The notes beneath the pieces are model-generated. The model did no database searches. It had not been told where the DNA came from and saw nothing but the letters and a program-made list of their open reading frames with translations. Positions 14,658 to 23,059 of a stretch of 64,000 nucleotides of DNA are shown one piece after another; the first letter of the stretch is position 1, and each line of letters opens with the position of its first letter. This stretch comes from Micromonospora purpureochromogenes (GTDB lineage Bacteria; Actinomycetota; Actinomycetes; Mycobacteriales; Micromonosporaceae): the NCBI RefSeq assembly GCF_900091515.1, contig NZ_LT607410.1:3658001-3722000 (forward strand), written 5' to 3'. A program made the translations under genes and the position numbers.

Positions 14658-16214
14658 ATGGCAGAGGAGGGCGTGCCGACCACGCAGGCCGAGGTGGTGA
14701 CCTGGTCGGTGGACGACCCGATCGTGGCGGCGGTGCGGCAGGTGCTGGCGGCGATGCCGTCCGGGTGCACCTGGCTGCTGCCGGTGACCCAGGACGGTGA
14801 GGTCGTCGACTTCCGCGTCGCCGCCACCAGCGAACAGGGCCGCGACGTCTACGGCCGGGGAGCCGGGCGGGTGGGCGGGCTGCTCAGCGCGCTCTATCCC
14901 GGCATGGTCGGCGGCGTGCTGTGGCAGGCGTACCACCGGGTGCTGGCCAGCGGCGTGCCGGCCCGGGTGCCGGACTTCCGGTACGAGGGCAAGCAGGCCG
15001 GTGTGGTCGCCGACTCGCTGTTCGACATCAGCGTGCAGCGGGTGCTGGGCGGCCTGCTGGTGTGGTGGGAGCGGCTCGACGAGCACCAGCGTCGGATGGA
15101 GCGTACCGAGCTGCTGGGCAGCCTCGGCTGGGCGGAGTACGACCCGATCACCGGCCGCAGCGAGTGGTCGCCCGGCATGTACCGGATCTTCGAGCGTGAT
15201 CCGGCGCTGGGTCCGCTGTCGCGGGCCGAGCAGTCCGCGGCGATCGTCCCCGACGACCACGGGCTGCGGGAGGCCGCCTGGCAGACGTTGGACAGCGGTG
15301 CGGCGTCGGACGTCACGGTGCGCTTCCGGGCGGGCTCGTCGGTGAAGTACCTGCGCATCCTCTCCGACGTCGCCCGGGACGCCGACGGCGCTCCGGTGAA
15401 GATCTACGCCGTGGTGCAGGACGTGACGGCCCGGGTGGCCTCGCGTACCGCCATCGAGCGGCTCAGCGACCAGCTGCACACCCGGGAGCTGACGGCGCTG
15501 GCGGAGCACCGCCTGGCCCGGCAGTTGCAGAACCTGATCCAGCCGGTGCCCCGCGAGCCGGTCCCGTTGGCCGGCCTCGAGGTGCTGGTCGGCTACCTGC
15601 CGGCGGAGAGCGCCGTGCAGGTCGGCGGGGACTGGTACCACGCGCAGACGTTGCCCGACGGGCTGGTCGCGCTCGCCGTCGGTGACGTCGCCGGGCACGG
15701 CCTGGAGGCGGCCAGCGGGATGGCGCACCTGCGGTTCGCGCTGGTCGCCTGGCTGTCGATCGGCATCCGGGACCCCGGAGCGCTGCTCGGGCACATGAAC
15801 CGGCTCTGCGGGCAGCTGAAGATCACCGCGACCGCGGTGGTCGCCGTCTACGACCCGGCGACCCGGTCGCTGTCCTGGGCGCAGGCGGGCCACCTGCCCC
15901 CGTTGCTGGCGCGCGGCGGGACGACCGCCGAACTCGACCGGCCCGCGGGCATGCTGCTGGGCGCCGACGCCGACTCGACCTATCCGGTCGTCACCCCCCG
16001 GCTGCGCGGCGACGACCTGCTGCTCTTCTACACCGACGGGCTGGTGGAACGCCGGGTCGGCGACACGGTCGACCTGCTCGGCCCGGTGATGCGGACGCTG
16101 TCCGACATCTCCCGTGACCCCGACGCACGGACCCTGCCGCGGCTGCGCGACGTGCTGCACCAGCCCAGCCCGGAGGACGACACCTGCACCCTGGCCGTGC
16201 GCGTGCTGCGCTGA
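14658..16214 (+). CDS. SpoIIE/RsbU-type PP2C phosphatase with PAS sensor
   Basis: The 518-residue regulatory phosphatase has an N-terminal sensor region (about 1-150), a PAS-like domain near 155-265 (GWAEYDPITGRSEWSPGMYRIFE) and a C-terminal SpoIIE domain. The phosphatase motifs are present: VGGDWYH, VGDVAGHGLEAA, AGHLPPLL, FYTDGLVERR and EDDTCTLAV. Such enzymes dephosphorylate STAS anti-anti-sigma proteins. A STAS protein and an RsbW-like kinase are the next two genes on the opposite strand, so it is the likely activator of that switch. TACGCT lies seven bases before ATG 14658, so the mRNA may be leaderless. Confidence 0.9.
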   Translation: MAEEGVPTTQAEVVTWSVDDPIVAAVRQVLAAMPSGCTWLLPVTQDGEVVDFRVAATSEQGRDVYGRGAGRVGGLLSALYPGMVGGVLWQAYHRVLASGVPARVPDFRYEGKQAGVVADSLFDISVQRVLGGLLVWWERLDEHQRRMERTELLGSLGWAEYDPITGRSEWSPGMYRIFERDPALGPLSRAEQSAAIVPDDHGLREAAWQTLDSGAASDVTVRFRAGSSVKYLRILSDVARDADGAPVKIYAVVQDVTARVASRTAIERLSDQLHTRELTALAEHRLARQLQNLIQPVPREPVPLAGLEVLVGYLPAESAVQVGGDWYHAQTLPDGLVALAVGDVAGHGLEAASGMAHLRFALVAWLSIGIRDPGALLGHMNRLCGQLKITATAVVAVYDPATRSLSWAQAGHLPPLLARGGTTAELDRPAGMLLGADADSTYPVVTPRLRGDDLLLFYTDGLVERRVGDTVDLLGPVMRTLSDISRDPDARTLPRLRDVLHQPSPEDDTCTLAVRVLR

Positions 16215-16221
16215 CCCGTCC

Positions 16222-16620
16222 TCAGAGGCGGAACCGGAGCCGCACCACCGTCCCGGCCGGGGTCGGCTCGACGGCGACCTCGTCGCAGATCCGGGCGACG
16301 ATCGCCAGCCCCCGACCGCGGATCGCCTCGGCGGTGGGCATCTCGCGGACCACCGTGCGCGGTCCGCCCTGGTCGACGACGTCGCAGACGAGCTGGCCCG
16401 CCTCGGCCCACACCCGTACCAGACCGCCCCCGTGGGTGTGCTGCAACGTGTTGGTCGCCAGTTCGCTGACCGCCAGCGCGAGCAGCTCCACCCGGGTAGC
16501 CGGCAACCCCCGGGCCAGGGCCCGGGAACAGACGAACGCGCGGACATGCACCAGGTCGTCGGCGTGCGCGTACGGCATGGTGGCGACGGCGCCGGACGGG
16601 GTGGCGGGACGGTCAGACAT
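16222..16620 (-). CDS. RsbW-like serine kinase / anti-sigma ATP-binding protein
   Basis: The 132-residue GHKL-fold protein is of the RsbW/SpoIIAB kind. The N-box ELATNTLQH, the G1-like VDQGGP and the G2-like GRGLAIVARI are visible. Family members bind a sigma factor and phosphorylate a STAS partner. It lies downstream of the STAS gene on the same strand, with a 27-base gap, and converges on the SpoIIE gene with 7 bases between stops. The start is ATG 16620. Confidence 0.88.
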   Translation of the reverse strand: MSDRPATPSGAVATMPYAHADDLVHVRAFVCSRALARGLPATRVELLALAVSELATNTLQHTHGGGLVRVWAEAGQLVCDVVDQGGPRTVVREMPTAEAIRGRGLAIVARICDEVAVEPTPAGTVVRLRFRL

Positions 16621-16647
16621 CGTCGTCCTCCAGCGGCCGTCGGGCCG

Positions 16648-16980
16648 TCACCGCGGGTCCACGCCGTCGTCGGTGGGCGGTCGCAGCAGGTCGGCGACGC
16701 CGGTGATCGCCAGGACGTTCGCGACGGGCCCGCGGGCGTTGACCACGTACAGCCGGCCGCCGGCCGCGCGGGCCGCATGGTGGGCGGTGACCAGGCCGTG
16801 GATGCCGGTGGAATCGAGGAAGTCGAGTGCCCCCGCGTCGACCAGCACGACCTGGGCGTCGGCCACGGCGGTCAGCAGCGCGGCCGTCAGCTCCTCCCGG
16901 GCGGCGAGGTCACACTCACCGGCGAGCCTCACCACCGCCCGCCCGGGTTCGGTGGACGTCGTCGCCTCGAAGCGCGCCAT
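16648..16980 (-). CDS. STAS-domain anti-sigma factor antagonist
   Basis: The 110-residue STAS protein is of the RsbV/SpoIIAA type. The phosphorylatable serine is Ser57 in DFLDSTGIHGL. The start is most likely ATG 16980 (MARFEAT), with GGGGAAGG twelve bases upstream; ATG 16992 is possible but too close to that site. With the kinase just downstream and the SpoIIE phosphatase opposite, it completes a partner-switching set. No cognate sigma factor is adjacent. Confidence 0.88.
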   Translation of the reverse strand: MARFEATTSTEPGRAVVRLAGECDLAAREELTAALLTAVADAQVVLVDAGALDFLDSTGIHGLVTAHHAARAAGGRLYVVNARGPVANVLAITGVADLLRPPTDDGVDPR

Positions 16981-17175
16981 AGGGCAGCTCATCCTTCCCC
17001 GCGCGGAGCAGTCGGCCGGTTCGCGCACATGATGTCACCTTGTCGGCGACCGTCGCGCCCGACGCGGCAGCCGGCGGCCCGGCTGCGGGGACACCGGCCG
17101 GCGCCCCGGCCGCTGGTGACCGCCGCCGGCGTGGCTGCGACGCAGGTGGGGGCGGGTGGCGACCGGTCCCGCGGG

Positions 17176-17892
17176 TCAGCCGGCGGGCTCCAGCCAGGCC
17201 ACCGCCCGGCGCACGGTGGCCTCGGGTACGTCGTGCCCACCGTCGAACTCGTCGTAGGTGACGTCGTAGCCGAGGGTCTGCAGGCGCGGCACGAGGCTCC
17301 GGCTGCACCGGTCGATCGGCAGCACCCGGTCGGCGGTGCCGTGCGAGACGAAGACGCGCGGCGTGCCGTGGGTGAGCAGCGGGGCGGCGAAGCCGGGGGA
17401 GAAGGCCAGGACGGCGTCGAAGACGTCGCCGTTGATCAGGCCGATCGACAGCGCGTACGACGCGCCGTCGGAGAACCCGCCGATCAGCATGCCGGCGATC
17501 GGGTAGCCGGCGACGATCTCCTGGAGCACCCGGTCGATCCGCCGTACGTCGGGGCCGAAGCCGACACCGATCATGTCCCAGGTCGCCGCGGCGGACTGCG
17601 GCGCGACGAGCAGCAGGCGTTGGTCGTCGGCGACCGGCAGCATCAGTTCCAGGGCCTGCCGGGGTGACCCGCCGGCGCCGTGCAGCAGCAGGGCCAGCCG
17701 GTACGGGCCGGCGTCCGCCGGCGCCGGCACGTAGGCCTGGGCGACCAGCTCACCGTCCGGTGCGTCGAACGACACCAGGCCGGTGCGGTCCGTGGCGGCG
17801 ACCGGTGGACCCGGTCGTACGCTCAGGCGGCCGTGCCGGGAGTTCTCCTCCGGCTGCTCGTGCGGTCGGGCGGTCTCCGGGGTGATCGGCAT
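17176..17892 (-). CDS. Alpha/beta hydrolase, phospholipase/carboxylesterase-like
   Basis: The 238-residue cytosolic serine hydrolase has the nucleophile Ser141 in GGFSDGAS, an acid candidate in HGTADRVLP and the histidine in GGHDVPE; the oxyanion region is LLLHGAGG. This pattern fits the dienelactone hydrolase/carboxylesterase branch. ATG 17892 has GGAGG six bases upstream; the frame continues to 17955 but without a better site. It diverges from the DHFR-fold reductase across the SARP-type boxes. Those boxes are oriented toward the reductase, so this gene may not share that control. Confidence 0.82.
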   Translation of the reverse strand: MPITPETARPHEQPEENSRHGRLSVRPGPPVAATDRTGLVSFDAPDGELVAQAYVPAPADAGPYRLALLLHGAGGSPRQALELMLPVADDQRLLLVAPQSAAATWDMIGVGFGPDVRRIDRVLQEIVAGYPIAGMLIGGFSDGASYALSIGLINGDVFDAVLAFSPGFAAPLLTHGTPRVFVSHGTADRVLPIDRCSRSLVPRLQTLGYDVTYDEFDGGHDVPEATVRRAVAWLEPAG

Positions 17893-17982
17893 GGGTGCCT
17901 CCGCTTCGGCGGGACTGTCCGGCGGGCTACCCGGTTCGGCGCGAAGCAATCCCACCCCGGCGGGGGAAGTGGTCCGGCGCGC

Positions 17983-18025
17983 GTAAGGGCGCCTGAAGCG
18001 AATCGTAAGCGGGGTCCGGCAATGT
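17983..18025 (+). promoter_or_regulatory. Triple SARP-type heptamer box and -10 of the reductase gene
   Basis: Three heptamers start exactly 11 bases apart: GTAAGGG (17983), TGAAGCG (17994) and GTAAGCG (18005). Exactly 8 bases after the last one comes CAATGT (18020-18025), a -10-like hexamer. This is the known geometry of AfsR/SARP activator sites. The same arrangement, with TGAAGCG and GTAAGCG identical, recurs at 21691-21733 next to the SARP gene. Confidence 0.75.
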
Positions 18026-18069
18026 TCTGGGTGTCACCGGAGAGCACCACCGACAACCAGGAGATCCCG

Positions 18070-18624
18070 ATGCGCAAGCTCATCAACTCGACCTACATCA
18101 CCCTCGACGGCGTCATCGAGAACCCCATGTGGACCATGCCGTACTTCGACGAGGAGGCCGCCGCCTTCGCCGCCGGGCAGACCGACGAGGCCGACGCGCT
18201 GCTGATGGGTCGGATCACCTACGACGGCATGTCCGCCGCGTGGCCGACCCGGGACGAGAGCGACCCGAGCACCGGCGCCGCCTACTTCAACAACGTCAAG
18301 AAGTACGTCGCCTCGACCACCCTGACCGACCCGACCTGGAAGAACAGCGAGGTGCTGCAGGGCGACCTGATCGAGGAGGTGACCCGGCTCAAGGCGCAGG
18401 ACGGCAAGGCCATCCTCCAGTACGGCTTCGGCTCGGTCACCACCCAGCTGATCGCGGCCGGTCTGCTGGACGAGGTCCGGTTCTGGATCCACCCGGTGCT
18501 GGAGGGCGGCGACAGTGTGACCGCACCGCTGAAGGACTTCAAGGCGTCGTTCGAGCTGGTCGACACGAAGGTGCAGCGCAGCGGCGTGATCATCGCCTCG
18601 TACCGGCCGAAGGCGGCCCGCTGA
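18070..18624 (+). CDS. DHFR-fold reductase (RibD C-terminal/YwjB-like)
   Basis: The 184-residue protein is of the dihydrofolate-reductase-like RibD C-terminal family, probably an NADPH-dependent reductase of unknown substrate. Typical stretches are STYITLDGVIENP, ADALLMGRITYDGM, KYVASTTLTDPTWKN and LQYGFGSVTTQLIAAGLLDE. ATG 18070 has AGGAG seven bases upstream. A triple SARP-type box lies about 60 bases upstream. The 3' end overlaps the convergent SARP gene by 35 bases. Confidence 0.88.
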   Translation: MRKLINSTYITLDGVIENPMWTMPYFDEEAAAFAAGQTDEADALLMGRITYDGMSAAWPTRDESDPSTGAAYFNNVKKYVASTTLTDPTWKNSEVLQGDLIEEVTRLKAQDGKAILQYGFGSVTTQLIAAGLLDEVRFWIHPVLEGGDSVTAPLKDFKASFELVDTKVQRSGVIIASYRPKAAR

Positions 18625-21600
18625 CGGACGCGCTCTCCAGCTGGGCCCGGGCCTCGCCCGGGCCCAGCTTGCCGCCCTCGGTGACCAGCGCGTCGAAGCG
18701 CTCCCGGCCGAGGGCGGCGACGAGTCGTACCGTCACCCGGTCGGTCTCGTCGCGCTCCGCCGGCGCGGCCGGGGCCCGGGCGGCGTCCCGCGCGGCGGCC
18801 GCGGCGCCCAGCAGGCGGGCCGCGACCTCGGGCGAACGCACCGCCGAGGCCATCCCCTCCAGCGCGTTGACCGCGTCGCGCGGTGACTCCATCGCCTGCG
18901 CGGCGTCGAACGCCTCGACGTGCAGGGCCAGCCCGGCGGCCTGGTCGCCGTTCTGCTCGGCCGCGTAGCCCAGCTCGACCAGGACCATCGGCAGGTACAG
19001 CGCGGGCTGCGTCTCGCGGCGGCCCTGCTCGGCGAGGCGCGTCAGGTGCGTGACGGCCACGTCGAGCTTGCCCTCGCGGCGGGCGGCCAGGCCGAGGCCG
19101 ATCTCCGCGAAGATCATCGCGTTCGGCGCGTCCTGCTCCACCGCCAGCTGGTACGCGCGCTCGGCCAGCTCCCGGCCCTGCGCGTAGTCGCGGGTCTGCG
19201 TCGCCAGCCAGGCCAGCCAGGACAGCTTGCTGCCCACCTCGGGCCAGAGCGACAGCTCCTCGGCCCAGCGCAGCCCCTCCCGGTGCAGGGCGGCGGCGCG
19301 CTCGTGCTCGCCGCGCATCTCGGCCAGGCCGCCCACCCAGTCGGTCGCCTGCAACCGCCCCCAGCGGTCGCCGACCTGCGCGAACAACGCCGCACTGCGG
19401 GTACCGGCCTGCTCCAGCGTGGCCAGGTCGCCGGTGGCGTGGGCGAGCTTGGCCCGCGAGCTGAGCACCGCCGCCTCGGTCCAGGGGTCGTCGACGGTGG
19501 CGGGCAGCAGCTCCGCCGCGAGGGGCAGGTCACTGCGCTCGATGACCGCGTTCGCGACGAACCATGCGGCCCGGCCGCCCGGGTCGCCGGCCAGGGCGGC
19601 GCGCAGGTCGCCCGGCGCGATCGGCTCGCCCTGCAACAGCGCGAACCCGGCCCGCCACGGCGCGGCGCGCGCCTCCTCGGCCGGGTCGCCCCGCATCGCC
19701 AGCGCCCGCCGCGCCTCGGTGAGCCGGCCGCGCAGGAACCAGTACCAGCTCAGCGCGACCGCCATGCGCAGCCCGCCGCCGTGGGCCAGCGCCGAGCGCA
19801 GGTTCGCCGTCTCGGCGTCGAGCCGGGCCAGCCATTCCTGCTGGTCGGCGCCGCGCAGCTCCGGGTCGGTGCGCTCGGCCAGGTCGGTGTAGTACGCCGC
19901 GTGCCGCGCCCGGACGTCGTCGGCGTCCGCCAGCCGTTCCAGGCAGAACGCGGCGACCGACTCCAACAGCCGGTAGCGGGGGCTAATGCCCGAGTCGTCC
20001 ACCACCACCAGCGAACGGTCCACCAGCCGGGCCAGCGCGTCGAGGTCGGTCCGGCACACCTGCTCGGCCGCGTCGGGCGTGCAGCCGTCGCTGAACACCG
20101 CGAGCCGGGCCAGCACCCGGCGGTCGGCCTCGGCCAGCAGGTCCCAGCTCCAGCCGATCACCGCGGTCAGCGTGCGCTGCCGTGGCGGCATGTCCCGCTG
20201 CGCGGTGGCGAGCAGCCTGAACCGGTCGTCGAGCCGGTCCACCACGCCCTGCACGCCGAGCGCGCGTACCCGGGTCGCGGCCAGTTCGAGGGCCAGCGGC
20301 AGGCCGTCCAGCCGGCGGCAGAGCTGCGCCACCGCGGGCGCGGTCCGCTCGTCGAGGTGGAAGCCGCGGTGCTGCGCGGCGGCGCGGGCGGCGAACAGCC
20401 GGGCCGCGGCCGAGCGCCGGACCGCGTCGAGGTCGCGGTCGTGCTCGGGTACGGCCAGCGGCGGCACCTCCCAGAGCAGCTCACCGGTGAGGCCGAGCGG
20501 TTCCCGGCTGGTGGCCAGCACGGTGACGCCGGCCGCGTCCCGCAGCAGCCGGGCGACCAGCGCGGCGACCGGCTCGATGACGTGCTCGCAGTTGTCCAGC
20601 ACGAGCAGCAGCTGCCGGTGCCGGAGCACTGCGGACAGCCGGTCGACGGCGGACACGCTGGCGCCCGCCGCCTCGCGCAGGTCCAACGCCCCGAGCACCT
20701 CGTCGGCGACGCGCGGGTCGCCGACCGGCAGCGGCGCCAGCTCCACCAGGTGGGCGCCGTCCGGGAGGACCAGCTCGCGGGCGGCCTCGGTGGCCAGCCG
20801 GGTTTTGCCGACCCCGCCCGGCCCGGTCAGCGTGACCAGCCGCTGCCGCGGGAGCAGGGCGCGCAGCTCGGTCAGCGCCTCGGCCCGTCCGACCAGCCCG
20901 TCGAGTCGGGCCGGCAGGCTGTTCCGGATGATCGCGGCTTTCGGCGGGGCGCTCAGGCCGGCGTCCTGTTCGAGGATCCTGCGGTGCAGGGCGACCAGCT
21001 CCGGCCCCGGGTCGAGGCCCAGCTCGTCGACGAGTCGGTCGCGCAGCTCGGCGTAGCTGTCCAGGGCCTCGGAGGCGCGACCGGCCGCGTAGAGCGCGCG
21101 CATCTGCAACGCCCGCAGCCCCTCGCGCAGCGGGTGCCGGGCGACCAGCTCGGCCAGGTCGGCGGCGACCAGGTCGTGCTCGCCGCGGGCCAGCCGGGCG
21201 TCGGCGAGCCGTTCGTGCACCACGAGGCGCTGCTCGGCCAGGCGGGTGGCCTCGGCGCGGGCGAACTCGGCGTCGGCCACGTCGGCGTACGCGTCGCCGC
21301 GCCACAGCGCGAGGGCGGCGGTCAGCCGGTCCACGTCGGTGGCGGTGGCCAGCTCCGCGAACCGGTCGGCGTCCACCGCCCCGGTCCGCAGCAGGTAACC
21401 GGGCGGCCGTGACTCGACCAGCTCGCGCGCGCCCGGCTCGGCGTCGTTGAGCGCCTTGCGCAGCTGGGACACCCGCACCTGGAGGGCGCCGGCCGGATTG
21501 GCCGGGACGTCGGCACCCCACAGGTCGTCGATCAGGCGGTCCGCCGAGACCACCTGGTTGCGGTGGGCCAGCAGGTCGGCCAGCAGCACCCGGACCTTGG

Positions 21601-21679
21601 TGCCGGGTACGACGACCGGCTCGCCGGCGTCCGTGCTGACAGCGAGCGGCCCGAGCACCCCGAACTGCACGGCCGCCAT
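18590..21679 (-). CDS. AfsR/SARP-family transcriptional activator with NB-ARC and TPR domains
   Basis: The 1029-residue regulator has an OmpR-type winged helix (about 1-95), a BTAD domain (about 100-240), an NTPase domain with Walker A GPGGVGKT at residues 286-293 and a TSREPLGLTGE segment, and TPR-like helices to the C terminus. Such STAND-type activators bind tandem heptamers overlapping the -35 region. ATG 21679 is taken because the domain starts there (MAAVQFGVLGPL). Boxes of the expected form lie just upstream of it, facing the divergent hydrolase, and in front of the convergent reductase. Both flanking genes are therefore probable targets. Confidence 0.9.
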   Translation of the reverse strand: MAAVQFGVLGPLAVSTDAGEPVVVPGTKVRVLLADLLAHRNQVVSADRLIDDLWGADVPANPAGALQVRVSQLRKALNDAEPGARELVESRPPGYLLRTGAVDADRFAELATATDVDRLTAALALWRGDAYADVADAEFARAEATRLAEQRLVVHERLADARLARGEHDLVAADLAELVARHPLREGLRALQMRALYAAGRASEALDSYAELRDRLVDELGLDPGPELVALHRRILEQDAGLSAPPKAAIIRNSLPARLDGLVGRAEALTELRALLPRQRLVTLTGPGGVGKTRLATEAARELVLPDGAHLVELAPLPVGDPRVADEVLGALDLREAAGASVSAVDRLSAVLRHRQLLLVLDNCEHVIEPVAALVARLLRDAAGVTVLATSREPLGLTGELLWEVPPLAVPEHDRDLDAVRRSAAARLFAARAAAQHRGFHLDERTAPAVAQLCRRLDGLPLALELAATRVRALGVQGVVDRLDDRFRLLATAQRDMPPRQRTLTAVIGWSWDLLAEADRRVLARLAVFSDGCTPDAAEQVCRTDLDALARLVDRSLVVVDDSGISPRYRLLESVAAFCLERLADADDVRARHAAYYTDLAERTDPELRGADQQEWLARLDAETANLRSALAHGGGLRMAVALSWYWFLRGRLTEARRALAMRGDPAEEARAAPWRAGFALLQGEPIAPGDLRAALAGDPGGRAAWFVANAVIERSDLPLAAELLPATVDDPWTEAAVLSSRAKLAHATGDLATLEQAGTRSAALFAQVGDRWGRLQATDWVGGLAEMRGEHERAAALHREGLRWAEELSLWPEVGSKLSWLAWLATQTRDYAQGRELAERAYQLAVEQDAPNAMIFAEIGLGLAARREGKLDVAVTHLTRLAEQGRRETQPALYLPMVLVELGYAAEQNGDQAAGLALHVEAFDAAQAMESPRDAVNALEGMASAVRSPEVAARLLGAAAAARDAARAPAAPAERDETDRVTVRLVAALGRERFDALVTEGGKLGPGEARAQLESASVSGPPSAGTRR

Positions 21680-21690
21680 CCTAGCGAGGC

Positions 21691-21733
21691 GGAAGGCGAC
21701 CTGAAGCGGACCGTAAGCGCCGTGCCCCACCGT
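21691..21733 (+). promoter_or_regulatory. Triple SARP-type heptamer box and -10 of the hydrolase gene
   Basis: GGAAGGC (21691), TGAAGCG (21702) and GTAAGCG (21713) are spaced 11 bases start to start, with identical GACC spacers. Eight bases later comes CACCGT (21728-21733), aligned with CAATGT at the other site. Transcription would begin near 21740, the start codon itself, which suggests a leaderless message. The box lies in the 60-base gap between the divergent SARP and hydrolase genes and could also affect the SARP gene. Confidence 0.75.
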
Positions 21734-21739
21734 GGGCGT

Positions 21740-22504
21740 ATGGACATCCACCACGAAGAACACGGCATCGGCGAGGGCCGCCCGCTGGTACTGGTCCACG
21801 GCGCGCTCTCCGGCATCGGCACCTCGTTCGGCAGGATCCTGCCGCTGCTGGCCAAGAGCCGGCGGGTGATCGCGATCGAGCTGCAGGCCCACGGTCGCAC
21901 CCCGGACATCGACCGTCCGCTGACCGTGGAGAACTTCGCCGCCGACGTGGTCGAGCTGCTCGACCGCCTCGGTGTCGAGCGGGCGGACCTGTTCGGCTGG
22001 AGCATGGGCGCGGCGGTCGCGCTGCGCCTCGGCACCGATCACGCCGACCGGGTCGGGCGGCTGGTGCTCGCCTCGGTGAGCTTCGACGACGCCGGCCTGC
22101 ACCCGGGACTGTTGGACGGCATCCAGGACCTGCAACCGGAACACCTGCACGGCTCGGAGTTCCACGAGGAGTACCTGCGGACCGCGCCCGACCCGGCCGG
22201 CTGGTCCAACCTGGTCACCAAGATGAAGGTCCTGGACGCGAACCTGCCGCAGTGGACGCCCGAGCAGATCCAGGCGCTGGCCGCGCCCACGATGATCGTG
22301 CTGGCCGACTCGGACATCGTCCAGCCCGAGCACGCCGTGCGGATGTTCCGGCTGCTCGGCGGGGCGGTGGCCGGCGACCTGACCGGCCTGCCGGCCTGCC
22401 GCCTGGCCATCCTGCCCGGCACCACCCACACCACCATCCCGCACCGCGCCGACTGGCTGGCCCCGATGATCGACGAATTCCTGGACGAGGATCACCGCGG
22501 GTAG
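21740..22504 (+). CDS. Alpha/beta hydrolase
   Basis: The 254-residue alpha/beta hydrolase has the nucleophile elbow GWSMG (Ser88), the oxyanion-hole strand PLVLVHGAL, an acid candidate in LADSDIVQP and the histidine in PGTTHTTIP. It is a typical soluble esterase or haloperoxidase-like fold; the substrate is unknown. ATG 21740 has no ribosome-binding site and falls about where transcription from the SARP-type promoter would start. It is divergent from the SARP gene. Confidence 0.85.
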   Translation: MDIHHEEHGIGEGRPLVLVHGALSGIGTSFGRILPLLAKSRRVIAIELQAHGRTPDIDRPLTVENFAADVVELLDRLGVERADLFGWSMGAAVALRLGTDHADRVGRLVLASVSFDDAGLHPGLLDGIQDLQPEHLHGSEFHEEYLRTAPDPAGWSNLVTKMKVLDANLPQWTPEQIQALAAPTMIVLADSDIVQPEHAVRMFRLLGGAVAGDLTGLPACRLAILPGTTHTTIPHRADWLAPMIDEFLDEDHRG

Positions 22505-22555
22505 TTGTCTTCTCGCAACGGTCGCGGAAATTTCCACCCTGGGTAACCTGCGAGC

Positions 22556-23059
22556 ATGAACGACGACGGGGCCTTCGACCCGGGGCTGGTGGGCCCCCGG
22601 CCGACCGCGGCGTCCGTGCTCATGTCCGAGGACTTCACCGCCGCCACCGTGACCGCCCTGCGGCACCGGTTGCGGGCGGCGGTCAGTGGCGCGGGACTCG
22701 TCGGCGACGAGGGCTACGACTTCGTTCTCGCCGTGCACGAACTGGCCACCAACGCGGTGCGCCACGGTGGCGGCCACGGCCACCTCGACCTGTGGCGCCA
22801 GGACGACGTGCTGATCTGCGAGGTCAGCGACCACGGAGCGACCGCCTCAGGTCTGCCCGTGCGGCTGCCCCCCGTCGACGTCGCCGGGGGACGCGGCCTG
22901 TGGCTGGCCCACCGGCTGAGCGAGGGCCTGCTGCTCACCCGAGGGGTCGACGGCGTCACCGCCACCGTGACCGCGTGCCTGGACGTCGTCGCCGGCCCGC
23001 CGGTCGTCGATGCCGCGGCGTCCGAGCCCCACCCGTCCGCCGAGGACGACCCGCGATGA
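22556..23059 (+). CDS. RsbW-like ATP-binding protein
   Basis: The 167-residue GHKL-ATPase protein is of the anti-sigma regulatory kinase class, paralogous to the one at 16222-16620. The N-box is HELATNAVRH, followed by SDHGATAS and GGRGLWLAHRL. The C-terminal 25 residues are acidic and Pro-rich. TAACCT lies six bases before ATG 22556 and no Shine-Dalgarno is seen, so translation is probably leaderless. No STAS or sigma gene is adjacent. Confidence 0.85.
   Translation: MNDDGAFDPGLVGPRPTAASVLMSEDFTAATVTALRHRLRAAVSGAGLVGDEGYDFVLAVHELATNAVRHGGGHGHLDLWRQDDVLICEVSDHGATASGLPVRLPPVDVAGGRGLWLAHRLSEGLLLTRGVDGVTATVTACLDVVAGPPVVDAAASEPHPSAEDDPR

Follow-up and report, generated by a model that had tools for sequence, protein, structure and literature searches.

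We analysed a 64,000-nucleotide stretch of Micromonospora purpureochromogenes DNA (contig NZ_LT607410.1, forward-strand positions 3,658,001 to 3,722,000), hereafter the window, in which positions are counted from the first letter. It contains a gene for a large regulator of the Streptomyces antibiotic regulatory protein (SARP) type between a reductase gene and a hydrolase gene, each preceded by a box of three heptamers. The features of this unit are:

17983..18011, plus strand: SARP box 1, with heptamers GTAAGGG (17983-17989), TGAAGCG (17994-18000) and GTAAGCG (18005-18011); sequence reading, patterns and matrices
18020..18025, plus strand: predicted −10 element CAATGT of the reductase gene, 8 bases after box 1; sequence reading
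18070..18624, plus strand: DHFR-fold reductase of the RibD_C/YyaP type, leadered; Pfam and structure matches
18590..21670, minus strand: large SARP-type regulator with winged helix, BTAD, STAND-type ATPase and TPR-like helical sensor; Pfam and predicted model
21678..21683, minus strand: predicted −10 element TAGGAT of the SARP gene, 7 nt before GTG 21670
21691..21719, plus strand: SARP box 2, with heptamers GGAAGGC (21691-21697), TGAAGCG (21702-21708) and GTAAGCG (21713-21719); sequence reading, patterns and matrices
21728..21733, plus strand: predicted −10 element CACCGT of the hydrolase gene, 8 bases after box 2 and 6 nt before the ATG
21740..22504, plus strand: alpha/beta hydrolase; Pfam, with a GWSMG nucleophile elbow recognised by eye

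The heptamers repeat with an 11-base period at both places exactly as a preliminary description of this DNA had claimed, and the sequence likewise bears out the identity of TGAAGCG and GTAAGCG at the two sites and the 8-base gap to CANNGT. Heptamers 2 and 3 are therefore the same in both boxes; heptamer 1 differs (GTAAGGG versus GGAAGGC) and is the weakest part of the box among relatives. In an alignment of 38 boxes, the C, the A and the last T of the −10 element are invariant. The gene calls of that description, with the reductase and hydrolase flanking the regulator, also hold, except that the SARP start shifts to a probable GTG at 21670. The 3′ end of the SARP gene overlaps the convergent reductase gene by 35 bases. 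Scans for sigma-70 consensus promoters and terminators (17100-22700) and for Rfam families at gathering scores (window) gave no matches.

The boxes are rare in the genome and conserved among relatives

A 43-bp pattern written from both boxes matches the window twice at up to 3 mismatches, with no match in 100 shuffles. Across the 6.67-Mb genome, TGAAGCGN4GTAAGCG has two exact matches and one with a single mismatch. Adding CANNGT to the two heptamer cores yields two exact matches genome-wide, none with one mismatch and five with two; the reversed control of this pattern gives four matches within two mismatches. Both exact core matches adjoin this SARP gene, as came out of the genome-wide search that the preliminary description had proposed. 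We also built a sequence model, R1, from 38 of 42 boxes, both window sites included, leaving out the near-duplicate DHFR boxes L033, L034 and L074 and the hydrolase box L047, which has the same letters as L044 (L-numbers denote relative loci and G-numbers genomes). The R1 scan, which scored the best 150 candidates in this genome, gave 40.5 and 39.6 bits to the window boxes and 15.8 bits (E 0.09) to the next site. The unit had been called self-contained, and neither the R1 scan nor the pattern search revealed a third site of comparable score in this genome.

Relatives were taken from a scan in which the best 80 of 568 loci were kept. Tested gene by gene against 200 shuffles, with a consensus drawn from the boxes themselves, the box ahead of the DHFR-fold gene is equalled or exceeded by at most one shuffle in 28 of 31 genes; it was not found by this test at L049, L073 and L099. 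All Micromonosporaceae orthologues have the DHFR box (20/20, window counted), and DHFR boxes also occur in Streptosporangiaceae, Thermomonosporaceae, Pseudonocardiaceae and Jiangellaceae genes. The hydrolase box is present in 14/14 orthologues, although it is weak in L042 and L045, where there are two heptamers and 13 and 4 of the 200 shuffles, respectively, score equally well; two distant hydrolases have no box in the consensus test. By eye, L042, L044, L045, L047 and L136 have just two heptamers on the hydrolase side; in L044 and L047 the first of these overlaps the SARP's own predicted −10 element (by eye).

Matrices made without the window sequence (24 DHFR, 12 hydrolase, 8 other-family and 19 non-Micromonospora boxes) rank 17983 and 21691 as the two best sites of the window. 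The matrix of 8 other-family DHFR boxes scores them 34.6 and 29.9, with the next site at 13.6; the hydrolase-only matrix gives the second window site 28.2, near the best of three shuffles (24.7). A letter-identity test for 11-base periodicity was rejected as too weak, since for several orthologues over 5 of 100 shuffles did equally well, although the periodicity was clear in many non-orthologous loci. The boxes are thus present in orthologous loci, where the preliminary description had counted their absence as evidence against itself. That they are chance repeats, for which nothing speaks beyond the high GC content (74%) of the genome, has negligible probability given the 0 matches in 100 shuffles, and is already refuted by their conservation among orthologues of several genera and families.

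Predicted promoters and starts

The hydrolase −10 element lies 6 nt from the ATG in 13 of 14 orthologues, and because this distance is kept the hydrolase mRNA is predicted to be leaderless. We predict a leaderless SARP mRNA too, because a TANNNT element stands 6-8 nt ahead of the SARP start in 35 of 36 orthologous loci. That start is most probably GTG 21670 rather than ATG 21679, which would begin a longer form and overlaps the SARP −10 element. The reductase gene is leadered, with 44 nt from the −10 element to the ATG and a Shine-Dalgarno-like AGGAG before the ATG. An N-terminally extended, leaderless reductase beginning at a GTG after the −10 element was considered and rejected: the distance from −10 to ATG ranges from 41 to 50 nt among orthologues and the frame is not kept.

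Box 2 covers the −35 region of the SARP promoter, and a 17-nt spacer puts the −35 on heptamer 2. Because of this overlap, it is plausible that SARP bound at box 2 could repress its own gene. Three findings go beyond the preliminary description: the leaderless starts, the position of box 2 over the SARP promoter, and the pattern among relatives described below.

Natural losses and an insertion link box 2 to the hydrolase

The hydrolase gene is adjacent to the SARP gene in 27 of 36 orthologous loci, has its start 1,009 bp from that of the SARP in L046, where an insertion separates the two, and is absent from eight; some loci look like the same or sister species (e.g. L036/L133 and L038/L135), so these counts are not all independent. 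Six of the eight hydrolase-less loci form one clade inside hydrolase-bearing relatives, and the six genomes have no hydrolase anywhere at E 1e-30. L157 (G010) groups beside hydrolase-bearing L036, with no hydrolase in G010 at E 1e-60. L043, at an unresolved fork near the root, has only a 48% hydrolase homologue on another contig, and the outgroup is without hydrolase. These placements suggest that the hydrolase was lost at least twice; its absence at L043 may be a third loss or the original state.

Where the hydrolase is adjacent, the SARP-side box scores 8.8 to 52.6 (two under 20); where it is absent, the scores are −15.3, −15.4, 12.0, 21.6, −10.6, −13.3, 9.3 and 28.0 (one-sided rank test, p 7e-5, relatedness uncorrected). 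All eight hydrolase-less loci retain the DHFR box (43.3 to 59.4) and the SARP −10 element. In seven of their genomes (all but G010) the best-150 R1 scan finds one strong site above 31 bits, the DHFR one, and the next best, at 23.5 bits, is the decayed L037 site. At L157 the heptamers persist and the −10 element is gone. L046 keeps both strong sites (42.4 and 36.1 bits), and the second of them has stayed beside the hydrolase, away from the SARP. Since box 2 decays without the hydrolase and stays with it in L046, the comparison indicates that box 2 is kept for the hydrolase.

Box 2 might instead serve SARP autoregulation with the hydrolase as a bystander, as its position over the −35 of the predicted leaderless SARP promoter would allow. 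We regard this as very improbable: the box ends 8 bases before a −10 element whose 6-nt distance to the hydrolase ATG is conserved as above, it is decayed or gone without the hydrolase though the SARP and its −10 element persist, and at L046 it goes with the hydrolase.

Box and regulator occur together across 150 family genomes

We searched 150 genomes of the family for the hydrolase (E 1e-60), the box (R1, E 0.01), the SARP (E 1e-150) and DHFR-fold genes (E 1e-30). The hydrolase was found in 16 genomes, the box in 32 and the SARP in 44; there were 110 DHFR-fold matches in 70 genomes. A box precedes 26 of 29 DHFR-fold genes that have the SARP within 6 kb (14/14 orthologues, 12/15 others), 5 of 36 with the SARP elsewhere in the genome (3/3 orthologues, 2/33 others) and none of the 45 in genomes that lack such a SARP (Fisher test, p 4e-17 for near versus rest and p 2e-9 for any SARP versus none; guides only, as the genomes are related). 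Such a SARP is present in 30 of the 32 box genomes; in G014 a weaker SARP match adjoins the box, and the box match of G056 has no recognisable partner (by eye). DHFR orthologues keep the box away from the SARP at L146 (30 kb) and L148 (another contig).

A rival view is that the boxes are general SARP sites used chiefly by a different SARP of the same cell, in which case the neighbouring regulator would not be their controller. This genome does have 14 SARP-like stretches, this one included, the best paralogue being 41% identical, and in G104 a DHFR orthologue carries a box although no close SARP orthologue is there. This explanation is nevertheless unlikely, as the box tracks this SARP subfamily through the 150 genomes, with 0/45 genes boxed where it is missing, and this genome has no further site of comparable score in the best-150 R1 scan and pattern search. 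The recognition helix is also kept among orthologues, as QVRVSQLR in 17 of the 18 compared (QVRISQLR in L038; L036 and L043 left out), and differs in many relatives with other partners.

The preliminary description had proposed that the SARP directly controls both neighbours. Footprinting by sequence comparison, the co-occurrence of box and regulator, the relocated boxed DHFR genes and the decay of the hydrolase box all support this, and we hold it to be highly probable that the SARP directly controls and activates the reductase and hydrolase genes.

Several points weigh against this reading or its simplest form. G104 holds a boxed DHFR orthologue (73%; L152) and only 55-58% SARPs, so the box is probably open to a paralogous SARP as well. 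At E 0.01 no box precedes three DHFR-fold genes of 38-41% identity whose neighbouring SARP is 53-54% identical, and 14 genomes out of the 44 that have the SARP are without an R1 match. The number of genes in the regulon can exceed two: in G028 a strong box (L147, G028:C16, 1840) precedes a further DHFR-fold paralogue (35% identity to the window reductase) on a contig other than the SARP's, from which it appears that the regulon can grow in trans. The hydrolase-less loci L037 (21.6) and L157 (28.0) score like intact ones. Strains that have the SARP and not the hydrolase let box 2 decay, which speaks against strong selection for autoregulation through it. The consensus of the per-gene shuffle test was written from these same boxes, and the R1 scans scored the best 150 candidates per genome (the best 42 in the 150-genome scan), so that weak sites may escape.

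The regulator and its likely mode of action

Three Pfam matches of the regulator exceed their cut-offs: the PF00486 winged helix (38.7 bits), PF03704 BTAD (125.1 bits) and AAA_22 (29.9 bits, cut-off 27). NB-ARC reaches 19.1 bits, under its cut-off of 23.5, and the best TPR match, TPR_2 at E 7.6, is non-significant. The label SARP-NB-ARC-TPR of the preliminary description is thus borne out for the SARP and ATPase parts (PF00486, PF03704, AAA_22), with NB-ARC below cut-off and no significant Pfam match for TPR. In the Walker A motif GPGGVGKT, residues G286, G289, V290, G291, K292 and T293 are invariant in 14 sequences. The predicted model has helices of about 17 residues at a 20-residue spacing, with high pLDDT, over residues 732 to 888. 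Its first-ranked structural match is 6mfv (E 6.3e-9), a STAND protein with a tetratricopeptide sensor, and it also matches AfsR, EmbR, Apaf-1 and TPR proteins; AfsR and EmbR chains are among the sequence matches as well. It resembles in this way the STAND activators with a TPR sensor, of which MalT is named as one (PMC10936776), and differs from them in that the effector here is a SARP domain. We ruled out that the regulator is an AfsR orthologue, since it scores 136.8 bits with the NCBIfam AfsR equivalog model (cut-off 1430).

There is precedent for SARP boxes, for sites of three heptamers, for large SARPs and for a target gene beside the regulator. Three-heptamer sites near the −35 are described for DnrI, ActII-ORF4, VlmI, FdmR1 and the SARP-LAL PimR (PMC10972967); those regulators serve biosynthetic clusters, whereas here two enzyme genes are the predicted targets and the neighbouring genes scanned contain no cluster. 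For AfsR, PMC10936776 describes a pair of SARP protomers on repeats of 11 bp, with 8 bp between the final repeat and the −10 element CACTGT; the protomers hold region 4 of sigma-HrdB and other RNA polymerase parts and so offset a poor −35; the NOD and TPR parts inhibit, and ATP binding relieves this. By the definition given there, the repeats of a SARP site have a period of 11 (or 22) bp and the final one lies 8 bp from the −10 element; the window sites have this layout, at 11 bp and 8 bp.

The AfsR-afsS pair of Streptomyces coelicolor resembles this unit in joining a SARP, a STAND ATPase and a TPR-type sensor (here TPR-like in the predicted model), with the target beside the regulator (PMC10936776, PMC10972967), and in having 11-bp repeats 8 bp from a weak −10 element (CACTGT there; CACCGT and CAATGT here). 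It differs in its box, CGTT(T/C)ATCG for AfsR against (T/G)(G/T)AAGCG here, and in its target, AfsS being sigma-factor-like whereas the targets here are enzymes on both sides. In an alignment by eye, W74, P79, R94 and K95 of AfsR, whose roles are described in PMC10936776, correspond to W54, P59, R74 and K75 here. AfsR R87, T88 and R92 are replaced by Q67, V68 and Q72 (also aligned by eye), which fits the different heptamer.

Because the window promoters share the AfsR geometry, activation of both genes is the best reading; we infer this direction of control from the equivalence of the sites to that of AfsR on afsS. The regulator would then be a SARP/STAND activator placed between its two targets, with its nucleotide-binding and TPR-like part sensing an inducer. 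Two SARP protomers would bind the last two heptamers of each box, and a third may use the upstream heptamer. By contacting sigma-HrdB region 4 and RNA polymerase, the protomers would substitute for a good −35, and transcription would start from the weak CANNNT −10 element eight bases downstream of the box. The expected output is a leadered reductase mRNA and a leaderless hydrolase mRNA, and SARP at box 2 may also limit its own synthesis.

Many related large SARPs are paired with reductase-type genes

We examined 58 non-orthologous loci, leaving out 20 orthologous loci and L093 and L105, which have too little upstream sequence. A strict box was defined as two heptamers with a purine-purine-G core 11 apart, then 8 bases and CANNNT; this pattern misses Actinomadura DHFR boxes. 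It faces the divergent side in 11 of the 58 loci and occurs in none on the opposite strand, against a shuffle expectation of 0.45.

At 13 of the 58 loci no divergent open reading frame (ORF) passed, and 40 of the other 45 ORFs were scanned (not L056, L063, L095, L103 and L108). Six reductase-type Pfam families account for 29 of the 40: ADH_N_2 MDR (8), SDR (7), RedAm-like (5), FMN_red (4), Oxidored_FMN (3) and RibD_C (2). The others are MFS (6), DUF899, NUDIX, PhoD and TetR (1 each), and one unmatched at E 1e-12. None of 20 control ORFs (of 31, lying at least 1.9 kb upstream of the SARP in the same loci) belongs to the six families (Fisher test, p 2e-8); among the controls are one MFS protein, an amine oxidase and a luciferase-like monooxygenase. 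The kind of partner tracks the SARP tree, yet at least 12 changes on it are needed; the tree is a quick one with many weak branches, two labels were assigned by eye or tblastn, and L096 was dropped. These counts suggest a family habit of one large SARP with one reductase or pump, and for the relatives a role in reducing or detoxifying small molecules on induction, not in making antibiotics. The box is shown for only part of the SARP-partner pairs.

As a tentative generalisation, on balance more doubtful than firm, we propose a widespread actinobacterial clade of large SARP/STAND regulators outside antibiotic clusters, in which a box of 11-bp period would wire each regulator to one or two enzymes, mostly reductase-type and from at least six Pfam families, or to an MFS pump. 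Together they would form a chemical-response system for electrophiles, quinones or foreign molecules, which the TPR-like part senses and the paired enzyme disposes of, and the present locus would be its two-target version. A non-cluster large SARP with convergent and divergent enzyme targets, and the reductase pairing of the clade, are undescribed in the open-access literature searched.

A possible role for the unit

The sole Pfam match of the reductase is PF01872 (RibD_C, 65.6 bits), and its nearest sequences are 8jsv and YyaP (2gd9). Its predicted model (pLDDT 87) matches the DHFR-like enzymes 8jsv, 3jtw and 2gd9, and also SacH of safracin biosynthesis with safracin A (7xh4, E 1.5e-11). SacH shares the reductase fold and sequence family and is 23% identical in alignment; it reduces the antibiotic's hemiaminal for self-resistance. 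NemR-nemA and YodB-azoR are single-enzyme detoxification units under small repressors. They resemble the present unit in placing the regulator beside one reductase gene and differ from it in the regulator, here a predicted activator of the ATPase type with 1,000 residues. The role that we think likeliest, with less confidence than the regulation, is that some small molecule, reactive or foreign, would be reduced or hydrolysed when the unit is induced.

With the regulation unchanged, the unit could also be a small biosynthetic, signalling or catabolic module, not one for detoxification or chemical response, and we treat this as a serious possibility, if not the favoured one. SARPs are known as activators of biosynthetic clusters (PMC10972967), and the DHFR-fold group includes riboflavin-pathway reductases, as the structure matches show. 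Against a biosynthetic module, the neighbouring genes examined include no biosynthetic core gene, the hydrolase is dispensable, and the relatives adjoin varied single reductases or MFS genes. Inducible chemical response remains the role we favour.

The unit offers a minimal mapped test case for large SARPs, with one regulator, two promoters and no other comparable site found in the genome, and evolution already supplies natural losses and relocations at it. Small SARPs have served as beacons for clusters, 82.1% of them lying inside predicted clusters (PMC12224297). If the wider pattern is true, many large SARPs that genome miners may read as signs of an antibiotic cluster would be chemical-response switches, and the inducer of a SARP-STAND sensor, a question open even for AfsR (PMC10936776), could be tested with a simple reporter.

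Surroundings and further boxed loci

The neighbouring genes scanned comprise a SpoIIE phosphatase, two anti-sigma-like ATPases, a STAS protein and an esterase besides the unit itself. The last of these neighbours is the following:

17176-17892: small esterase (Abhydrolase_2), divergent from the reductase gene; Pfam

We rejected the esterase as a third member of the unit, because tblastn at 1e-5 found nothing like it in the 80 related loci. The unit is enclosed on either side by a partner-switching set (14658-17028 and 22556-23059), consisting of a SpoIIE-type phosphatase on the plus strand and an anti-sigma-like HATPase_c_2 protein and a STAS protein on the minus strand. Another HATPase_c_2 gene directly follows the hydrolase gene.

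Four boxes in G106 and G064 (L153, L154, L155 and L156) have no SARP at E 1e-150 within 7 kb and stand ahead of other ORFs: that of L154 is a 46% DHFR-fold gene, and those of L153 and L155 are FAD-linked-oxidase-like (by eye). These four are perhaps the regulon of a paralogous SARP. At L151 (G095:C20:156708-156983) two boxes, one on each strand, stand back to back near a SARP of 56% identity. Large SARPs divergent to reductive-aminase-like genes occur at L061, L069, L071, L086, L087 and L084 (L084 by eye), and such pairs might yield imine reductases under inducible promoters.

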